NCBI RefSeq assembly: GCF_000787575.1
Contig: NW_012236512.1
Coordinates: 446,511-510,510, forward strand
DNA length: 64,000 nt
Origin: Acytostelium subglobosum LB1
Taxonomy: Eukaryota; Evosea; Eumycetozoa; Acytosteliales; Acytosteliaceae
Direction: 5' to 3'
This document shows, piece by piece, positions 1 to 44,436 of the stretch; position 1 is the first letter of the stretch, and every line of letters begins with the position of its first letter. Under the pieces are notes generated by a model. That model saw only the letters and a list, made by a program, of their open reading frames with translations. It made no database searches and was not told the DNA's origin. Made by a program: the position numbers and the translations under genes.

Positions 1-2863
1 TGACAGCAGACAGAGTATCGATCAGAACCTTGAGGAAGAAGAATATGTCATTGTTTGAGGACTTTAGTTTGGACGATGACTTGCCCCTACTGACCACACG
101 GCTGATGCCATCCAATATCGACACGCACCAAGTGAAGCCTCCAGCCTCCTTGAACGACATCTTTGAATTGTCATTGTTGTGGAATATATAACACATCGCA
201 GCAAGTATATCTGATTGATTGGATGGATGGTGTTAGGCATGACAGGGTCTGATGATGACGTTGCAAATTGAAGTACATACTCTTGCGCATTGATAAGACA
301 TGTGTGTCCAGGGTAGTCGCACCTCCATTGCTCTGCAATACTTCGATGAGGTCGGCAATAATCTTGGACTCCACGCCCAGATTGCCAATAGCTAAAGTCG
401 CGATCGCTTGAAGGATGGGCTGGATGAGATGTGGATCCGACAACAGCTTGTAGAGCAACTTGAGACCTCCAGCCTCCACGAACAGGCTCTGTATGTGGAT
501 GGACTGAATGAAGAACTCCAGCAGCAGCTTGAGCACTGATGTCTCGATCTGGTACAGCACAAACATTGTGCTGTTGGTCACTGTGCCTGAACCAGGGGGC
601 TGACTGGGGTTGGCCGCAGCGGCCGCGCTTGCGTTACACAGCTGCAGACAGATCTCGAGCTCAGAGGGATTCTCGCGAAGCACATCATTGAAGGGCAAAC
701 CCTGGGGATCGGTCAGATAGAACATTAGTATCTTGATGATGCCCGCCTCTTCCAGCTCCAGCAGATTGATCTTGGACTTGGCGATAAGGTCGGTCATGTG
801 CTGGCTGACCATCAGCACAGTGCTGGGTAGACTGCTCTCGAGCAGCGACACGTAGAACCTAATCTCTGCCTCCTTGATCTGGTTCTTGAGCAGCAGTTCG
901 TCCATCATGTCGAGGATCAGTCGTCTATTGATCGTGCTGAGCAGGTCGAACTGGGCAAAGAAGATCTTGAAGGGTTCGAGCTGATGGAACAGGCCCACAT
1001 TGTCATTGTCCATCTGTTCAAAGTCTGCTGGATGTTCGGCAATCAATCCCAAGTTGAATATATCCTTGATGCACTTGAGCAACTCTGTCTTCATCTCCTC
1101 GCTGTTTGTTATCGAGAAGATATTGATGAATATATTGAACACCTTTAAGCTTGTCTTTGATATGTTGTCTGGGGGAGTGAGAGCAAGAGTGAGTATGGAT
1201 GGAAGCGCGCGCGAGATTGGACACATGCATTATACATACTTAGATGATAACAGGCGTCTGGAGAGTCGAGTTGGAACTCCTTTCGAAGGGAAATAAATAG
1301 AAGATTACAGGCGACGTTGATGATGTCCAGCTTGTGTTTCAGGCTGCCATGGTCGGCAATGTGAATAAAGGTGTTGAGTAACACAGTGTAGCCGTTGTTG
1401 TTGTCAAAGTCGTTGTGCAGCGTGACCATTAGACGCGATGAACTCTTGATCGTGTAGACAATGACCTGCGTGATCTCGATGATCGTTGGCACAGGCAGCT
1501 TCTTGGCTGTGTGCGTCTCCTGCTGATTGAGCACGTTGAGCAAACTCTCGACGACGCGCTTGTCATGCAGCACCTGCAGATGCTCCTTGGAGAGGCAGCA
1601 GCTGGACATGATCTGGGCAAAGATCCTGACGATCTGGCTGTAGATGATGGGCGAGTGGCTGGGCGCCGACGTCTGGTGCAGCAGGATGCCCACAAGCATC
1701 TCGATGCAGTCCGAGCGCAGCATGTCGCCCAGTGTGCTAATGTCGCGCACGATGTTGCCCAGGATCTTGAGCAGCTGGAAGCAGACGGCGATGTGTGGCG
1801 CCAGGTCGTGGGTGGACTTGGGCAGTGTGGCACCCATGCCGCCATGATCAGACGATTGTGAAAGTGTCGGAGATGACGCACCTGAGCTTGAGAGTGTAGT
1901 CGGGTTTCGCAGTTCGTGATGCTGGTTCAGGCTGCTGTTCCTCAGGCCATTGCTATTGTTGTTGTTGTTGTTGTTGTTCATATCGTCGACAAGCTGGAAG
2001 GATGGAGGCGATGTACCCATTCCCATTCCCATGCCCATGCCATAGAATGTCGGTGATGAGTTGGTCGAGATGTGCGTGGCAAAGTCGTTGTGATCGTACA
2101 CAATCGCAGAGAATGGAAGTGGCGTCAAATAGAAGTATGTATGAATGCCTGGGAATGGTTGTATATTCGAGTTGACAATATTGTTATGTTTGCTGTTAAT
2201 CGTAGTAATATTGTTGCTGCTATTGTTATTGTGATTGAGCAAAAGGTGAGTGAGGACTACGACTAGGAAACGAATGAATGATATTGATAGTCCACTGGAG
2301 GAGTATCGAGTGAGTATCTCCAATGCATATAATATCAATGGTGCCTCTGATGTCGGTGTACCTCCCAGCAAGTACTGAAGCATATCTGTCGCAGGTGATT
2401 GTTGTTGTCTCTTTGTCGTTGTATTATTATTATTGTTATTGTTGACGCTGTTTCCACTGTTGTTCATATGATGATTGTTGTGATTAAGTGATGGTGATGA
2501 TGAGGATGATGAGGTTGCGAGGAATGCATTCAACTCCTCTACAAGTCGCTTGACCAATGATGATGTGATGTCGCCTAGTGGTGTACTGATGGCCAGTGGC
2601 AAGAGATACTTTGGTGTCTCATTGTGCATCGATACGAATGTCTTTAAGAATTCGATCAGTGATACCATTGCATCCTGATGTACAACAGTCTGTTTATATG
2701 TACTCCACATCGTTGCTATTAGTAACTGTCCACTTGTCATTCCATGTTGTTGTCCTCCTGTCATTCCTTGTTGACTCTGATTCAATCCATTCGATATTGT
2801 TGTCGATGATGATGTTGTTGATATTGTTGATGATGATGATGCCATTCTACTTGAAGATGTCAT
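1..2863 (-). CDS. BEACH-family-like giant protein, N-terminal part (cut by window edge)
   Basis: Read as complement(join(<1..210, 281..1168, 1240..2863)). Both introns (70 and 71 bp) run GTATGT to AG and keep frame. The start at 2863 is followed by a Ser/Thr leader, then helical armadillo-like sequence broken by Asn/His/Ser runs and a Gly-Met repeat (GMGMGMG). The last exon visible, with EAGGFTW followed by a hydrophobic run, resembles the helical N-terminal half of large BEACH proteins (WDFY3/Lvs type), which act as scaffolds in membrane traffic and autophagy. The diagnostic BEACH and WD40 domains would lie beyond the left edge, so the family call is inference from the helical-repeat style. 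About 900 residues are present. It could instead be another armadillo scaffold. Confidence 0.5.
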
Positions 2864-3589
2864 TATAAATATATAAATATAATATTATTATATGTCTAGA
2901 CCAAACTAATGGTACAAGAGATAGAGATAATTATAAAGAGTCAGGTTATGTATGAATGAATTGATATGAGGTTGATGACAAGGTGTTGTTGTTGTTGTTG
3001 GGTTTGTGTGTAGATGGTGTGGAATGAGTGAGAGAGTGGTGAATGGGTCCGTGTGTGTCTTTGAGATTGAGCTTTGAGTTGGGTTGTGTGTGAGTGTGTC
3101 AATCAATCAATCAATTAATCAGTCCAATCAAAGGTCCTGATCACAGTGATCAATAATAATATATAACTTTGTGTGTGTGTATGTATAAGTCCGAACCCTA
3201 TGGATATAGGAATGAATGGAATTGAAAAGGGAATGAACTAATACTTTTAAATAAGAGTTTCTTGTTCTTATTCAATGATCTCCTTCAACTAACAAACTTT
3301 TATTCATAAGGGCACGTCTTTCTTTTTTGGTGCATCCCATCCCCATCACTTGTGTGATCAAGATACCCCCAAACACACTCGAGTCTTTTCGTCTCACGTG
3401 ATGTGACCACACGTCCTTGCGCACCACAACAAAATATCCAATTCTGAATTCCTATGATGATGATGTTACCATTCATTATCTGAGAATATGTGATTGATTG
3501 ATTGATGGAATGTTTACCACTCCTCTTCTTTATGTGTTTCAAACAAATAATAATAATAATAAAACATAATATGTAATTGATTGGTACAT
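2864..3589. other. Intergenic, BEACH-like gene promoter side / SNARE 3' side
   Basis: No convincing gene. It holds an AT-rich start-proximal stretch, GT-rich and TTG-rich simple sequence around 2990-3110, and short CAAT/ATTG tetramer runs. The low-complexity open frame at 2906-3106 on the minus strand (mostly H, T, N, P) looks like simple-sequence noise. Confidence 0.6.
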
Positions 3590-4596
3590 CTAACAATGCT
3601 TTGGATCATTATAAATCTTACATCCAGAGTCTTTGATTGATTGATTGATTGAGTCAGTGAATGGTTGGATGATTGATTGATGGTGATTGAATAACATAAC
3701 ATACCTGTTGCCAACAATACTATTATAACTATAATTAACAATACTATACACATGATTAGACCACAACTGCTTGCATTCCGACGTAATGTGTCCATTGTTG
3801 AAGTGGTCTGCGATAGGTTGGTAGTAGTCCTATCCACTCCCACCTCAATATCATCCAACATCAAATTTTGTTTGGTCTACGTATCAAGAGTGTGAGTGAG
3901 TAAGAATGGATTGATCAATGGATTGTTTGAATGATTGATTGCACTTGAATGATGTACATACTATCTCTGTGTTCATTGTAGTTGCTAGGACCTTCTGTTT
4001 CATCAGTGAGCCAGATAGTAAATCCAGTGCCACATCCTGATCATTCATCGCCTGATTATTCTGATCGAATATTTGTTGATTGGACATTCCCTGTGTCTGT
4101 TCAGTATCCTTGCCCCATGCTCGTTTGCCACTTGAGCTACCTATCAGTTCATTCCTAATCGCGATGATATTTCAGTCAGTGTGTGATCGTGAACGGTAGG
4201 GTGTTTGGTCGGGGCTGGAATCATCCCACCCCACCAACACACCCACCCCATAACATGATCAATCAATCAATCATACCTTGCTTGATTGTTTGAGTTTGTA
4301 CTGGCGGCCTCGAATGATGAGGCTAGGTTGTTCTTCTTTGTGACTAGTTGTTCGACAATCTGTCTTCTACGCATTGTCTCGCGTTCTGTAATGCGCACGT
4401 TTGAGTAGGTAAGGCCATCGAGTAGACGTGACAGGTCGTTTGAAATCTTGACCAACTCTCTTCTTATATTAGGTGCCTGACGCAATGCCTGTGGTGGGTT
4501 ATTACTATACATCGACTCATAACTCCTGACATCCGCGGCCAACTGTGTCAGTGCCGTATTGATATTATCACACTCTATTTGCCATGTGTCGCTCAT
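3590..4596 (-). CDS. Syntaxin-8-like Qc-SNARE
   Basis: Read as complement(join(3590..3630, 3705..3876, 3962..4154, 4277..4596)), 241 residues, close to the usual syntaxin-8 length. The N-terminal helical region (TWQIECDNINTALTQL) is followed by a SNARE heptad stretch (about residues 150-205, including LMLDDIEVGVDRTT) and a C-terminal tail anchor of about 20 hydrophobic residues (IMCIVLLIIVIIVLLATG). A short tail ending KIYNDPKHC comes from the last small exon. Family role: Qc-SNARE in endosomal and lysosomal fusion. All three introns start GTATG and end AG with frame kept. The short last exon is the least certain: without it, translation would run into Ser/Asn-rich intron sequence. Confidence 0.8.
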
Positions 4597-39021: not shown

Positions 39022-40707
39022 ATGACAACATCTAGAAATAGAGATATACTTAGTTCATCTAATGATATGGGTCGTTCACCTGTGGACTGGGACGCAATCA
39101 AAGAACAAGATACCGATGAGGAGGACGATGCCAATGATGATGATAAGTTGAATACAAAGAAGAGAAAGAATGATCAAGTTGATATCATTAGACAACAAGA
39201 TGATGTAGTGGAAGAAGAAGAAGAAGATGATGGTGATGTCGATGAAGAGTTAGAGCGTGAACTGATACTTGAAAGAGAACAAAAGAGATTGAGATATGAA
39301 GCAGATACTACAACAACAACTACAACATTTACAACTACAACTACGACAAAGGAAACAACAAATGATACAATTACAACAGATTCAGATAACAACAACAACA
39401 ACAGTAATAATAATAATAATAATAATATTGAAGAAATTATAACAAATGATATAAATATTAGTATAGATATAGGAGAGGTTATTGATGAGACAACTCCAGA
39501 GCAGCAAGTGACCAATGTAAATAGTAATGGCAATGTCAATGGCACTGGTGATGGCTCACCCTCAGTCAATGGCACCTCTTCAACAACGACAACGACAACG
39601 ACAACAACAATATCCACTCCCAATGGCACTGGTACACGCACACTCAATGGCAATGAGATTGATAACATGGAAGAAGACAATGATAATGACGACACTGGCA
39701 CTGCAACTGGCAATGACACATCTGGGACAACGACAACGACAACAACAACACAATCACAATCACAATCATCTGGTACACCAAAAAGCAAACGTGGAAGAAA
39801 GAAGAAAGATCCGACTATACCAAAGGAGAAGAAGAAGAAGGAATATGAGAATACTACGTTGCAACCGATTCAACCTGAACAGATCACTCTTTATTCACTG
39901 GGCGCATTGGTCAAGAGGAAGATCGTTGGTGCTGAGATGCCATCCACGCTAGAGAAGAGGACGAGCAAAGGCGCTGCATCGGCTAAGGGTCGCCGACCCA
40001 ACATCGCATTCAACAGCGCGGCGAGTGAGGACGAAGAGGATGATGGCGCCGAGTTTGAGATGGTCGACGGTGTCATCGTGCCCAAGATGCGTGGCCCTTC
40101 CTCCGCACCAGTCATCTACGAACAGGCCAACTATGACACCAACTCGCTCATCAACAGTCAATCTTTCTCGAAACGCGAGACACAGCGTGCATGGAGCAAG
40201 GCAGAGACCGAGGTCTTCTACGAGGCGCTCAAGAAGTATGGCACCGACTTCACATTGATGGAGACTGTGTTTGACGACCGATCACGTCTGCAGCTCAAGA
40301 ACAAGTTCAAGCGCGAGGAGAGGAGCAATCCTGAGCGAGTCCATCAGCTAATTAGTGCAGAGCGCCAGGCCATTGATCTGCGCGAGTTCAGGAATGCCAG
40401 TGAGGCTGTCAAGCTGAAAAAGGTGCAGCGCGAGGAGGCCATCAAGAAGGCCAAGCACGACGCCGACAGGCGTGTTGATGAGGAAAACCAGCAGGAGTTG
40501 GACGATCTGCAGGACGAGCGCGCTCAAGCGGAGCGTCAGCAGCGATTTGGTGCCCTGGGTCGATCGTCAGGCAACAATGACCATTCCGAGGAGGTCATTC
40601 TCGACGAGTACCAACAGCAGCAACAACAGATGCAGAATCAGAGTCAGTACGACTACTTCTCATTCCAAAGCGATTGTTATGATGTCGGTGATGACTATGG
40701 CTATTGA
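39022..40707 (+). CDS. bdp1: TFIIIB subunit B'' (BDP1)
   Basis: Single exon, 561 residues. The first 280 residues are acidic and homopolymer-rich (E/D, T, N). Then an AT-hook-like basic patch (SKRGRKKKDPTIPK), a conserved ITLYSLGALV segment, and an extended SANT domain at about 390-445 (RAWSKAETEVFYEALKKYGTDF, RLQLKNKFKREERSNPERV), followed by a charged coiled coil. The W-T/S-K-x-E-T-x-x-F-Y-x-A-L core with GTDF and KNKFKxEE is diagnostic of BDP1, which with TBP and BRF positions RNA polymerase III. Start follows an AT-rich leader. Confidence 0.93.
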   Translation: MTTSRNRDILSSSNDMGRSPVDWDAIKEQDTDEEDDANDDDKLNTKKRKNDQVDIIRQQDDVVEEEEEDDGDVDEELERELILEREQKRLRYEADTTTTTTTFTTTTTTKETTNDTITTDSDNNNNNSNNNNNNNIEEIITNDINISIDIGEVIDETTPEQQVTNVNSNGNVNGTGDGSPSVNGTSSTTTTTTTTTISTPNGTGTRTLNGNEIDNMEEDNDNDDTGTATGNDTSGTTTTTTTTQSQSQSSGTPKSKRGRKKKDPTIPKEKKKKEYENTTLQPIQPEQITLYSLGALVKRKIVGAEMPSTLEKRTSKGAASAKGRRPNIAFNSAASEDEEDDGAEFEMVDGVIVPKMRGPSSAPVIYEQANYDTNSLINSQSFSKRETQRAWSKAETEVFYEALKKYGTDFTLMETVFDDRSRLQLKNKFKREERSNPERVHQLISAERQAIDLREFRNASEAVKLKKVQREEAIKKAKHDADRRVDEENQQELDDLQDERAQAERQQRFGALGRSSGNNDHSEEVILDEYQQQQQQMQNQSQYDYFSFQSDCYDVGDDYGY

Positions 40708-40842: not shown

Positions 40843-42958
40843 CTACTCGACGTCCACAGCGTCAACGGTCAAGGCTGAGAATGATGAGACGATGATGTTA
40901 TCAGTTTGCTCCAAACTGACTTCGGGCACACTCAAGGTTGCTGCCGCTGCCGCTGCTGCTGCTGCATTGGCGGCCTCAACCATCTTGGCATAGGACTCGA
41001 TGGCTGCGTTTGACTCGTCCTCGGACTGGATAACCTGAATGTCGCTGAATGACTCGTGGGGACCTGGCTCCACAAACATGACCTCGAACTTGTTGATGAT
41101 CTCAATGCCCTCGTTACCCTTTGGTATAGTTGGATGATCCTCGCGCACGACGATTCTCTTCTTACACAGATCAGTGTCCATCTTGAACCAGAGCAGGTGG
41201 ATGTTCTTGACGCCGTACTGGTGAGCCAGGCGGACCCAGGTGCGACGCTGTTGAATGTCAAAGTTGCAGCGATCAATCACCACGCTCTCGCCCTGCTTCA
41301 GACTGGCGATCATGACATCCTCGCACTTCTTTCTCGTTCCAAGATCGTCCTGGTTCACTCTCTTCCAGCCTCGCTCTGCGAGGCGCGATGCAAAGTAACT
41401 CTTGCCCGACGCCGGGAATCCAACAGTGATCAGCACTCTCTGATTGTCATTGTTTCTCGGCTGTGGTGTGGTTGATGGTGATGATGTCTGTGTCTGCTGT
41501 CCCTTCTTGCCCGACTGTTGTTTGACATTGTTTCCAGAGTCAAACTCGGGAAGGATGGCCAGGTCGAGGATGTCGTCCTCCCACTTTGCCCATGAGTACT
41601 GGTCCAACTCCAACTCCTTCTGGAGCGTGGCTTTGTTGACGGGCGATCCCTTCTCCTTCAGCTCCTGTACGATCATCAGCACCTTGGTCTGAATGCCAGA
41701 GTCGAACTGCTCCCAATGATACTTCTCAGCATCGGTGGGCTTGATAGAGAAGATGTTGTTTTGCTCCACCAACTGATTGTTGTCGTTGAGGATGTACAGC
41801 ACTCGCCCCTCCTCGAGATAGTGATTGTACCAATACATGTTCTCTTGCATGTTGTTCTCTTTGCGATACGTCTGATTGATATCCAACAGCTGTTGCTTGA
41901 TAAGAGTTGCACGCTCCTGAAGATTGGCCAGAGTGATTGGCTCGTCCACGTTGGTCAGCACACCATGCTCATTGATCACTGGGGAGATTGCGCCGCTGCG
42001 ACCATCGATGGTCATCAGCGGCTGGAGAGCCAGCTCGAATGAGTAGTTTACAATGTGAGGCAGCTTGTTGCCGCACAGCTCAAACGACATTGATTGACAG
42101 CTGGTGTGCGAGTCCTTTTGAAGCAGTGGCAACAGCAACTCAGGACATTGGTTCTGGAATGTTACATTGGGGATGATATCGAATGATTGCATCGATGTCG
42201 CATGTTGTTTGATTATCTGATTGACGACCTCCAATGCGTTGCCCTTCTTGTCATTGGACAAGAAGTGGCTGGTCCTTGGTCGCGCTCCAACAAAGCAGTT
42301 GCCATCATGATCAAAGTACTTGAAGAACTGGATGTTCATGCCTGTATGATTGATTGATTGATTGAGTGATTGAATGAGTGAGTAAGCTTGAGTTGGGCAT
42401 TGGCTCGCAAATTGACGCGATGTTCATACCATTCCACTTGTTGGCCAGGTAGTATCGCTTGAAATGAACATCTGGCAGGAGATGACTGTGATACTTCTTG
42501 ACCTTGGGGACGACGTAGACGTATTGATAGGTCTCGAGATCGACACCATTCACTCGCATGATGATAAAGTCGTTTGATTCCTTGATGACTACACCCTGTA
42601 ACACATTGTTGTCATTGATAGGGTCGGTAGCAGAGAATGATTGAACATTGTTGGTGGCCAGCTTAGTGACACCCATCGAGCAAGCACGCTGTATCTGTTC
42701 ATCAGTGAATGTTACTGCCATTGGTTTCTTTGATTGTGCCATCGTAGTCTTTGGTGATGATGTCGATGGTGATGATGGTGAAGGTGAGGAGCTACCCTTT
42801 GAGTTTGTGTTTGAAGTAGTTGAGATGGTCAATGTTGACGTTGTTGTTGTTGTTGTTGATGATGGTGATGATGAGTTGTTGGTGATGGAGCCAAAGTCCA
42901 TGGCATCGATGAATGATGTGGTGGCAGTTGATGTTGGAGCCTGTAATCTACAATCCAT
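40843..42958 (-). CDS. Probable RNA ligase-polynucleotide kinase fusion
   Basis: Read as complement(join(40843..42341, 42430..42958)), 675 residues; the intron splits the Gly codon of motif I. Residues 75-400 look like a T4 Rnl1/Trl1-type nucleotidyltransferase: motif I KWNGMNI (Lys174), motif III/IIIa SFELCG and LPHIVNY (262-280), motif IV EEGRVLYI (353-360), motif V FSIKPTDAEKYH (374-385). Residues 475-640 are a P-loop kinase: GFPASGKSYFAS (Walker A, 484-491), VNQDDLG, VVIDRCNFD, WVRLA. By family, the kinase phosphorylates 5'-OH ends and the ligase seals them (RNA repair, tRNA or HAC1-type splicing). No cyclic phosphodiesterase domain is seen. Ligase assignment rests on motif order, not on search. 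Confidence 0.75.
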
Positions 42959-43446: not shown

Positions 43447-44436
43447 TTAGAGTGCCCTTGAGAGACCTGAGGAGGTGCTTCCAGATGAGCTGCCTGAGGA
43501 TGAACCTGAGGAGCTGCCGCTGGTCGAACCACCTGATGAGCTGCCACCGGATGAGCTGCCACTGCCGCTGCCGCTGGTGGTGCTGCCAGAGCCAGAACCG
43601 GAACCAGAGCTCGAGCTGCTGCCACCGGATGAGGAGGGGTCGCCAGAGGTACCGCCTGGACACCAGTCCTGGTCAATGTCGTAGCCACAGACGGTTACGT
43701 CACCGTTGTATTGCTTCCAGGATGGCGAGCTCCAGCCTCCGAATGGGGAGAAGTCGTCAAAGTTGGCGTTGCCATCGTAGTTGGCGTACCACAGTGGGTA
43801 TGCAGAGCCACCAGACCAGTCGCCAAAGATTGGCTCCCACTGCGAGGCCGAGGTGTAGATGCCTACCTTGGCACCAACAGAGTTGGCACCGGAAAGCATG
43901 TCGTTGAAGAAGTCTTGGTTGGCGCCATAGTCTGAGCCCCAGTACGTGCCTGGACCCTCGATATCGAACCAGACCATTCCAACAGATACTCCATTCTCGC
44001 TAAGGTAGCTCATCATATCGACAACTTGGCCAGCTCCATCACCACATGAAGAGCATGGGAAAATGTAACTGTTGTACGAGGCATTAAGAATGTTAGAACT
44101 TGATGTGATGGACATTGATGGGAATATTGTTTGTTTGTACTTACGCATCAGCAGTGAGACCAGCAGCTTGGGCAGCCTGGATGGTGCCTGGACAGTCTGG
44201 ATCGGTCTGATTGATGGACTCCCAACAACGGACAACAACAAAACTGTATCCATTTTGAGCGAGACATTGGAAGGTGCTCTCATCTCCAGCGGAGGAGACA
44301 TCAACTCCATAAGTCTATTATTCAAATGTTTATGTAAGTATGATTGAATGAATGTTTTAATGAATGTACAAATACATACAGCACTGGCAATCTTGAGCAA
44401 GCCTACAAAGCAAACTAATAAGACAATATATTTCAT
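43447..44436 (-). CDS. Secreted GH25-type lysozyme with Ser/Gly-rich tail
   Basis: Read as complement(join(43447..44068, 44145..44314, 44380..44436)), 282 residues. Signal peptide MKYIVLLVCFVGLLKIASA fills exon 1 exactly. The catalytic domain has YGVDVSSAGDESTFQCLA (the N-terminal catalytic-Asp strand), VVVRCWES, MVWFDIEGPGTYW (the DxE acidic pair) and GIYTSASQWEPIFG, ending near CGYDIDQDWC. It closely follows the GH25 fold of Entamoeba- and dictyostelid-type lysozymes that cleave bacterial peptidoglycan in phagosomes or outside. The last 75 residues are S/G/T repeats, likely a glycosylated stalk. The start at 44436 is preferred over the upstream in-frame ATG, because it gives a clean signal peptide. 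Confidence 0.88.
   Translation of the reverse strand: MKYIVLLVCFVGLLKIASAVCICTFIKTFIQSYLHKHLNNRLMELMSPPLEMRAPSNVSLKMDTVLLLSVVGSPSIRPIQTVQAPSRLPKLLVSLLMRKYKQTIFPSMSITSSSNILNASYNSYIFPCSSCGDGAGQVVDMMSYLSENGVSVGMVWFDIEGPGTYWGSDYGANQDFFNDMLSGANSVGAKVGIYTSASQWEPIFGDWSGGSAYPLWYANYDGNANFDDFSPFGGWSSPSWKQYNGDVTVCGYDIDQDWCPGGTSGDPSSSGGSSSSSGSGSGSGSTTSGSGSGSSSGGSSSGGSTSGSSSGSSSGSSSGSTSSGLSRAL

Follow-up and report, generated by a model that had tools for sequence, protein, structure and literature searches.

Probable ligase-kinase gene in the window

We analysed a 64,000-nucleotide stretch of the genome of the amoeba Acytostelium subglobosum LB1 (contig NW_012236512.1, positions 446,511 to 510,510; hereafter the window), in which a two-exon gene on the minus strand encodes a protein that we read as an RNA ligase joined to a polynucleotide kinase (Table 1). 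Based on its sequence and predicted structure, we put the probability that this protein is a ligase plus kinase acting on RNA at about 0.8. A first-pass annotation of the window had described the reading frame, its intron and a set of ligase motifs in order; on rechecking the coordinates and the spliced protein of 675 aa we found the same, with the intron indeed interrupting the glycine codon of motif I, as had been reported. The deposited Acytostelium protein, P0001, is 100% identical to the spliced protein across the entire query region (residues 75-640), and thus the splice junction is consistent with the public gene model. Residue numbers refer to the 675-aa protein; alignments and models follow P0001, whose numbers exceed these by 2. 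No second copy of the ligase-kinase gene was found in the genome.

The protein has the features expected of the nucleotidyltransferase RNA ligase superfamily: motifs I, III, IV and V occur in order, and their key Lys, Glu, Glu and Lys residues are nearly invariant. Conservation was counted in 87 ligase segments of ≥230 aa, the Acytostelium protein included, after the 4 shorter of 91 segments were dropped. In addition to the counts in Table 1, the motif I glycine is found in 86/86 rows and the asparagine in 81/86 (Asp in five), and rows such as P0104 and P0106, in which the motif reads KxDG, form a bridge between KWNG and the usual KxDG. Motif V begins with SIK in the Acytostelium protein, while the first position is Lys in 76/86 rows. 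This conservation across aligned rows is the strong evidence for the predicted motif set; the spaced set was absent from all 20,000 shuffled sequences (0/20,000), a weak control since the pattern was fitted to the same sequence. The earlier assignment of SFELCG to motifs III and IIIa stands for motif III, whereas motif IIIa probably corresponds to the PLM strand, around residue 284. Both the model of the Acytostelium protein and the ligase model of a relative have the nucleotidyltransferase ligase fold, and the 50 structural matches listed for the relative's ligase-only model, which has a mean predicted local distance difference test score (pLDDT) of 96.7, are solely ligases.

Several results weigh against this reading. 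The high-confidence ligase-only model is that of the relative, which is 31% identical to P0001 in the alignment. The Acytostelium protein matches no Pfam ligase family at a limit of E 10 (HMMER filters discard most matches above about 0.1), the T4 Rnl1-type profile PF09511 (RNA_lig_T4_1) included. In a profile-profile comparison with 120 Rnl1-type proteins, motifs I and III fell in register without reaching significance (hhalign E 0.038, probability 1.4%), and with a smaller pair of alignments motif III alone was aligned. Among the relatives, P0011 matches PF09511 from motif I to motif V (E 6e-5; 23.4 bits, under the cut-off of 28.3), and L006 has a weak RNA_ligase match (E 0.0048). Searches of PHROGs with five members and of NCBIfam with six (best 25 of the longest lists) returned kinase and phosphoesterase families and no RNA ligase family. 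None of the models tested from Pfam, PHROGs or NCBIfam recognises the family as a ligase above cut-off or gives it a name, and the relatives appear to form this family rather than to belong to Trl1.

The kinase is more readily recognised than the ligase, since Pfam identifies it as AAA_33 (E 1.1e-15). It has a P-loop kinase fold with an intact P-loop, as expected of a 5'-OH polynucleotide kinase, and the second half of the protein is 36-42% identical to solved Mucorales kinases (PDB 9d8a, 9drz). There is no match in the protein to PF08302, the C-terminal 2H cyclic phosphodiesterase, and residues 651-676 of P0001 have pLDDT <50, so that there is no space for such a domain at the C terminus. The ligase fold and motifs, the kinase match and the absence of PF08302 together bear out the initial description: an RNA ligase and a kinase in one protein, and no cyclic phosphodiesterase.

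Table 1. Coordinates in the window of the ligase-kinase gene and of the domains and motifs that it encodes
Feature	Position	Strand	Details
Whole gene	40843..42958	minus	exon 1 + intron + exon 2; 675 aa; matches deposited protein P0001
Exon 1	42958-42430	minus	529 nt; starts with ATG at 42958
Intron	42342..42429	minus	88 nt, GT-AG (GTATGA...ATACAG), phase 1; splits motif I Gly177 codon (G|GC)
Exon 2	42341-40843	minus	1499 nt; stop TAG 40845-40843
RNA ligase (nucleotidyltransferase) domain	41548..42700	minus	about residues 87-441; span includes intron
Motif I, Lys174-Trp-Asn	42431..42439	minus	KWNG at 174, Gly177 beyond intron; predicted adenylation site; Lys in 85/86 rows
Motif III, SFELCG 262-267	42070..42087	minus	Glu264 and Gly267 each in 87/87 rows
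Motif IIIa region, LQPLMTID 282-289	42004..42027	minus	assigned from position and conservation, not superposition; Phe in 84/87 rows at Met286
Motif IV, EEGRV 353-357	41800..41814	minus	Glu354-Gly355 in 86/86 rows
Motif V and following His, SIKPTDAEKYH 375-385	41716..41748	minus	Lys377 in 86/86 rows, His385 in 85/85
Polynucleotide kinase domain	40951..41439	minus	about residues 478-640
Kinase P-loop, GFPASGKS 484-491	41398..41421	minus	pattern G.P..GK[ST] in 22/27 ligase-kinase and 48/48 metallophosphoesterase-ligase-kinase rows

The gene lies between a convergent neighbour on the plus strand (39022-40707), which encodes a Myb_DNA-bind_7 domain (E 6.1e-27) and resembles the TFIIIB subunit Bdp1, and a minus-strand neighbour (43447-44106) encoding a Ser/Gly-rich protein. 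The latter is by eye possibly a lysozyme-like glycosidase; the part tested had no Pfam match at E 0.001.

Distribution of the family among protists and, apparently, phages

Two homology searches returned 25 and 90 proteins (83 new in the second), giving 108, or 110 with L003 and L006. The first search scored just the 7,996 candidates with the most shared words, and 110 slightly overcounts independent sequences, since over the ligase L006 is 99.7% identical to P0062 and L003 is 89.9% identical to P0044. Architectures were called with our own domain hidden Markov models, and some proteins may be cut by contig ends. Denoting metallophosphoesterase, ligase and kinase as MPE, LIG and KIN, we found 48 MPE-LIG-KIN, 27 LIG-KIN, 18 MPE-KIN, 14 LIG, 2 MPE-LIG and 1 KIN. 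Those closest to the Acytostelium protein are poorly known proteins from other unicellular eukaryotes and, apparently, from large viruses of bacteria; ligase-only gene models occur in Naegleria, Willaertia and Balamuthia.

The P-loop pattern is present in 18/18 MPE-KIN proteins as well as in the rows counted in Table 1; the pattern NQD[DE] is found in 38/48 MPE-LIG-KIN, 14/18 MPE-KIN and 18/27 LIG-KIN proteins, and D[RN][CT]N in 40/48, 17/18 and 19/27, respectively. Ten dictyostelid-clade rows, P0005 among them, keep all four kinase patterns. Seven LIG-KIN proteins of the eukaryote-type clade (P0068, P0070, P0071, P0072, P0073, P0075 and P0080) fail most of the four and retain the ligase, with a generic P-loop still present in P0068 and P0072. 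The MPE-KIN proteins that have no ligase domain (18/110: P0022-P0024, P0090-P0103 and P0105) are possibly end-healing enzymes paired with a separate ligase. P0106 joins a KxDG ligase of the family to a Pol-beta nucleotidyltransferase of the RlaP type (PF10127, E 3e-8), which is known as a partner in RNA repair.

In a quick ligase tree of 84/87 rows (two near-duplicates, P0008 and P0009, and the divergent P0106 were left out), eight dictyostelid-clade rows group together with a support of 100 (Shimodaira-Hasegawa-like approximate likelihood ratio test, SH-aLRT). They are nested in a 14-row group (SH-aLRT 99), itself nested in a 29-row group (SH-aLRT 99) that contains all rows named eukaryote or derived from EukProt and zero MPE-LIG-KIN proteins; 14 of these 29 rows are metagenome proteins, whose eukaryotic label we infer from the tree alone. 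The kinase tree (84/94 rows, without P0008, P0009 and eight rows whose kinase is degraded, unrelated or truncated) keeps 14 LIG-KIN rows labelled eukaryote-type together (support 80). Four further LIG-KIN rows (P0016, P0019, P0074 and P0079) are not part of the eukaryote-type clade in the trees containing them, and may be fragments of phage-type proteins. A tree in which the other 54 rows are held together outscores the quick tree, so the trees do not fix donor and recipient.

One full MPE-LIG-KIN protein was found in the viral collection, on the 167,515-bp contig IMGVR_UViG_3300032213_002832 (L003, the same as L015). It is surrounded by genes for ribonucleotide reductase, two head-maturation-protease-like proteins, an ATP-dependent DNA ligase and a PF09414-type RNA ligase, and by NAD-salvage-type genes (nicotinamide phosphoribosyltransferase and a cytidyltransferase-Nudix protein). 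L006 is filed as a contig of a Bacilli metagenome-assembled genome; because on reading it has a similar order of related ribonucleotide reductase, protease-like, ATPase and other genes, we take it as a phage contig inside the Bacilli bin. We infer that the remaining MPE-LIG-KIN proteins belong to phages as well. On a further viral contig, L005, the stretch 383-4129 has 21 predicted tRNA genes together with a match to the kinase alone.

Proposed role and rival explanations

The Acytostelium genome encodes RtcB (E 1.1e-162) and its activator archease, and thus the ligase-kinase is likely an extra enzyme. There are also Tpt1 matches on contigs C22 and C24, and a PNK3P phosphatase match close to a related kinase match on C54, which are probably one PNKP gene. 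Two T4 Rnl1-type (PF09511) ligase genes (L001, G000:C56:279775-280386; L002, G000:C46:867955-868686) have dictyostelid, Acanthamoeba and Naegleria relatives. With RtcB and the ligase-kinase, these bring the candidate RNA ligases in the genome to at least four. Beside all of these genes, the ligase-kinase is probably an additional enzyme of RNA repair.

We propose that the C-terminal kinase would phosphorylate a 5'-OH RNA end, with GTP the likely donor by analogy with GDP-bound relatives, and that the N-terminal ligase would transfer AMP from ATP to Lys174 and then to the 5'-phosphate, joining that end to a 3'-OH. Phage-type members combine metallophosphoesterase, ligase and kinase in a single chain. 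Since the amoeba protein has no domain for 3'-end healing, 2',3'-cyclic phosphates would have to be opened by a separate enzyme, unless the substrate already carries a 3'-OH. The genome has a 2H phosphoesterase-superfamily match on C49, which is a candidate 3'-end-healing partner only. Mending tRNA or other RNA that has been cut, alongside RtcB, rather than bulk tRNA splicing, would be the most likely role, to which we give an even chance.

If the protein were instead a very divergent Trl1 orthologue that had lost its cyclic phosphodiesterase (CPD) domain, it could still take part in splicing, of tRNA or dependent on IreA, together with a phosphodiesterase on a separate protein. The order of domains is that of Trl1, a Trl1 LIG-KIN is the top Foldseek match of the whole model, and, among the structural matches of the ligase alone, places two to six are taken by tRNA ligase entries. 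Moreover, although the Acytostelium protein matches neither PF09511 nor PF08303, its relatives P0014, P0015 and P0012 exceed the curated cut-off of PF08303 (tRNA_lig_kinase). Tpt1, which removes the 2'-phosphate that remains after joining of the Trl1 type, is encoded in the genome, but it is also found in organisms that use RtcB, and RtcB with archease could handle tRNA splicing. The ligase, judged via the relative's model, is about equally near archaeal RNA ligase, Rnl1 and Trl1. Given this, and with PF09511 and PF08302 both unmatched, we consider such an orthologue unlikely. The interpretation in the first-pass annotation is supported in part: the Trl1-like LIG-KIN order and the missing CPD domain hold, while kinship with Trl1 at family level is doubtful. 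We consider it very improbable that the protein is a ligase-fold protein for DNA nicks or has lost catalysis.

Repair by the ligase-kinase could also serve in conflict, countering RNases such as the tRNA-cutting toxins of prey bacteria, with the enzyme exchanged between protists and large phages. This would fit the share of MPE-LIG-KIN among family proteins (48/110), the place of L003 on a 167.5-kb viral contig near RNA ligase, DNA ligase and NAD-salvage-type genes, and the ligases of Naegleria (P0082) and Balamuthia (P0081), which are up to 49% identical to phage-type ligases. Jumbo phages are thought to deploy ligases and kinases in this way (PMC7824862). However, the ten dictyostelid-clade ligases are just 24-35% identical to 47 phage-type ligases, well below the two protist ligases, a single conserved copy fits a housekeeping gene equally well, and a search of the L003 and L006 stretches for tRNA genes gave none. 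We therefore regard a conflict role as possible but doubtful. A broader account, which seems to us evenly balanced, is that an unnamed family common to large phages, where one MPE-LIG-KIN chain would repair both ends and seal, and to protists has crossed between viruses and eukaryotes, and that dictyostelids kept or gained the LIG-KIN form as a dedicated repair of RNA damage beside RtcB and two Rnl1-type ligases.

In open-licence literature on RNA ligases, kinases and RNA repair, we recognised no description of an Acytostelium-type ligase-kinase in the parts available. The occurrence of RTCB in Dictyostelium is reviewed in PMC13247085. A review of jumbo-phage RNA repair lists ligases, kinase-HAD proteins and, in a few phages, calcineurin-like phosphatases, with no mention in the available text of an MPE-LIG-KIN chain (PMC7824862). 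For the Dictyostelium IreA pathway, a 2026 report states that it is unknown whether IreA splices mRNA or just degrades it (PMC13343406), and a 2018 review that an XBP1-like target is unidentified (PMC6025073); neither names an RNA ligase for the pathway in the sections available. The new part of this work is the ligase family and its phage-protist spread. If correct, it would mean that curated libraries miss a family of ligases, and would link RNA repair in amoebae with the counter-defence machinery of phages. It would also point to a candidate enzyme for joining RNA in Dictyostelium, one open to knockout in a standard laboratory strain.

Comparison with known systems

Fungal Trl1 (LIG-KIN-CPD, for example PDB 9r3w) resembles the Acytostelium protein in the order of ligase and kinase and in the fold of both, and its motif I is of the KxNG type, like KWNG. 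The Acytostelium protein differs in having neither a CPD domain nor a sequence-family match, and the two domains do not superpose together (root-mean-square deviation about 17). The archaeal ATP-dependent RNA ligases of PDB 5d1o and 2vug, which we take to be Rnl3, are comparable in fold, but these structures have no kinase and are 11-12% identical. The solved Mucorales chains are kinase only, with 165-176 residues.

RLIG1 (C12orf29), a 5'-3' RNA ligase, is eukaryotic, also occurs in viruses and has been proposed to act in tRNA repair, but its motif is KxDG (PMC11494293). The Acytostelium protein has no match to the RLIG1 family PF17720 at a limit of E 10, and no RLIG1 structure is among the 50 matches listed for the relative's ligase model. 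In T4, Rnl1 and Pnkp are two separate proteins, and Pnkp has an aspartate-type phosphatase; the arrangements of Trl1, T4 and Branchiostoma are set out in PMC3400036. Bacterial Pnkp (PNK-MPE-LIG) differs from the Acytostelium protein, which has the order LIG-KIN and scores 16.7 bits against TIGR04075 (cut-off 750), but it combines the same three activities that would be expected of the phage-type MPE-LIG-KIN relatives.
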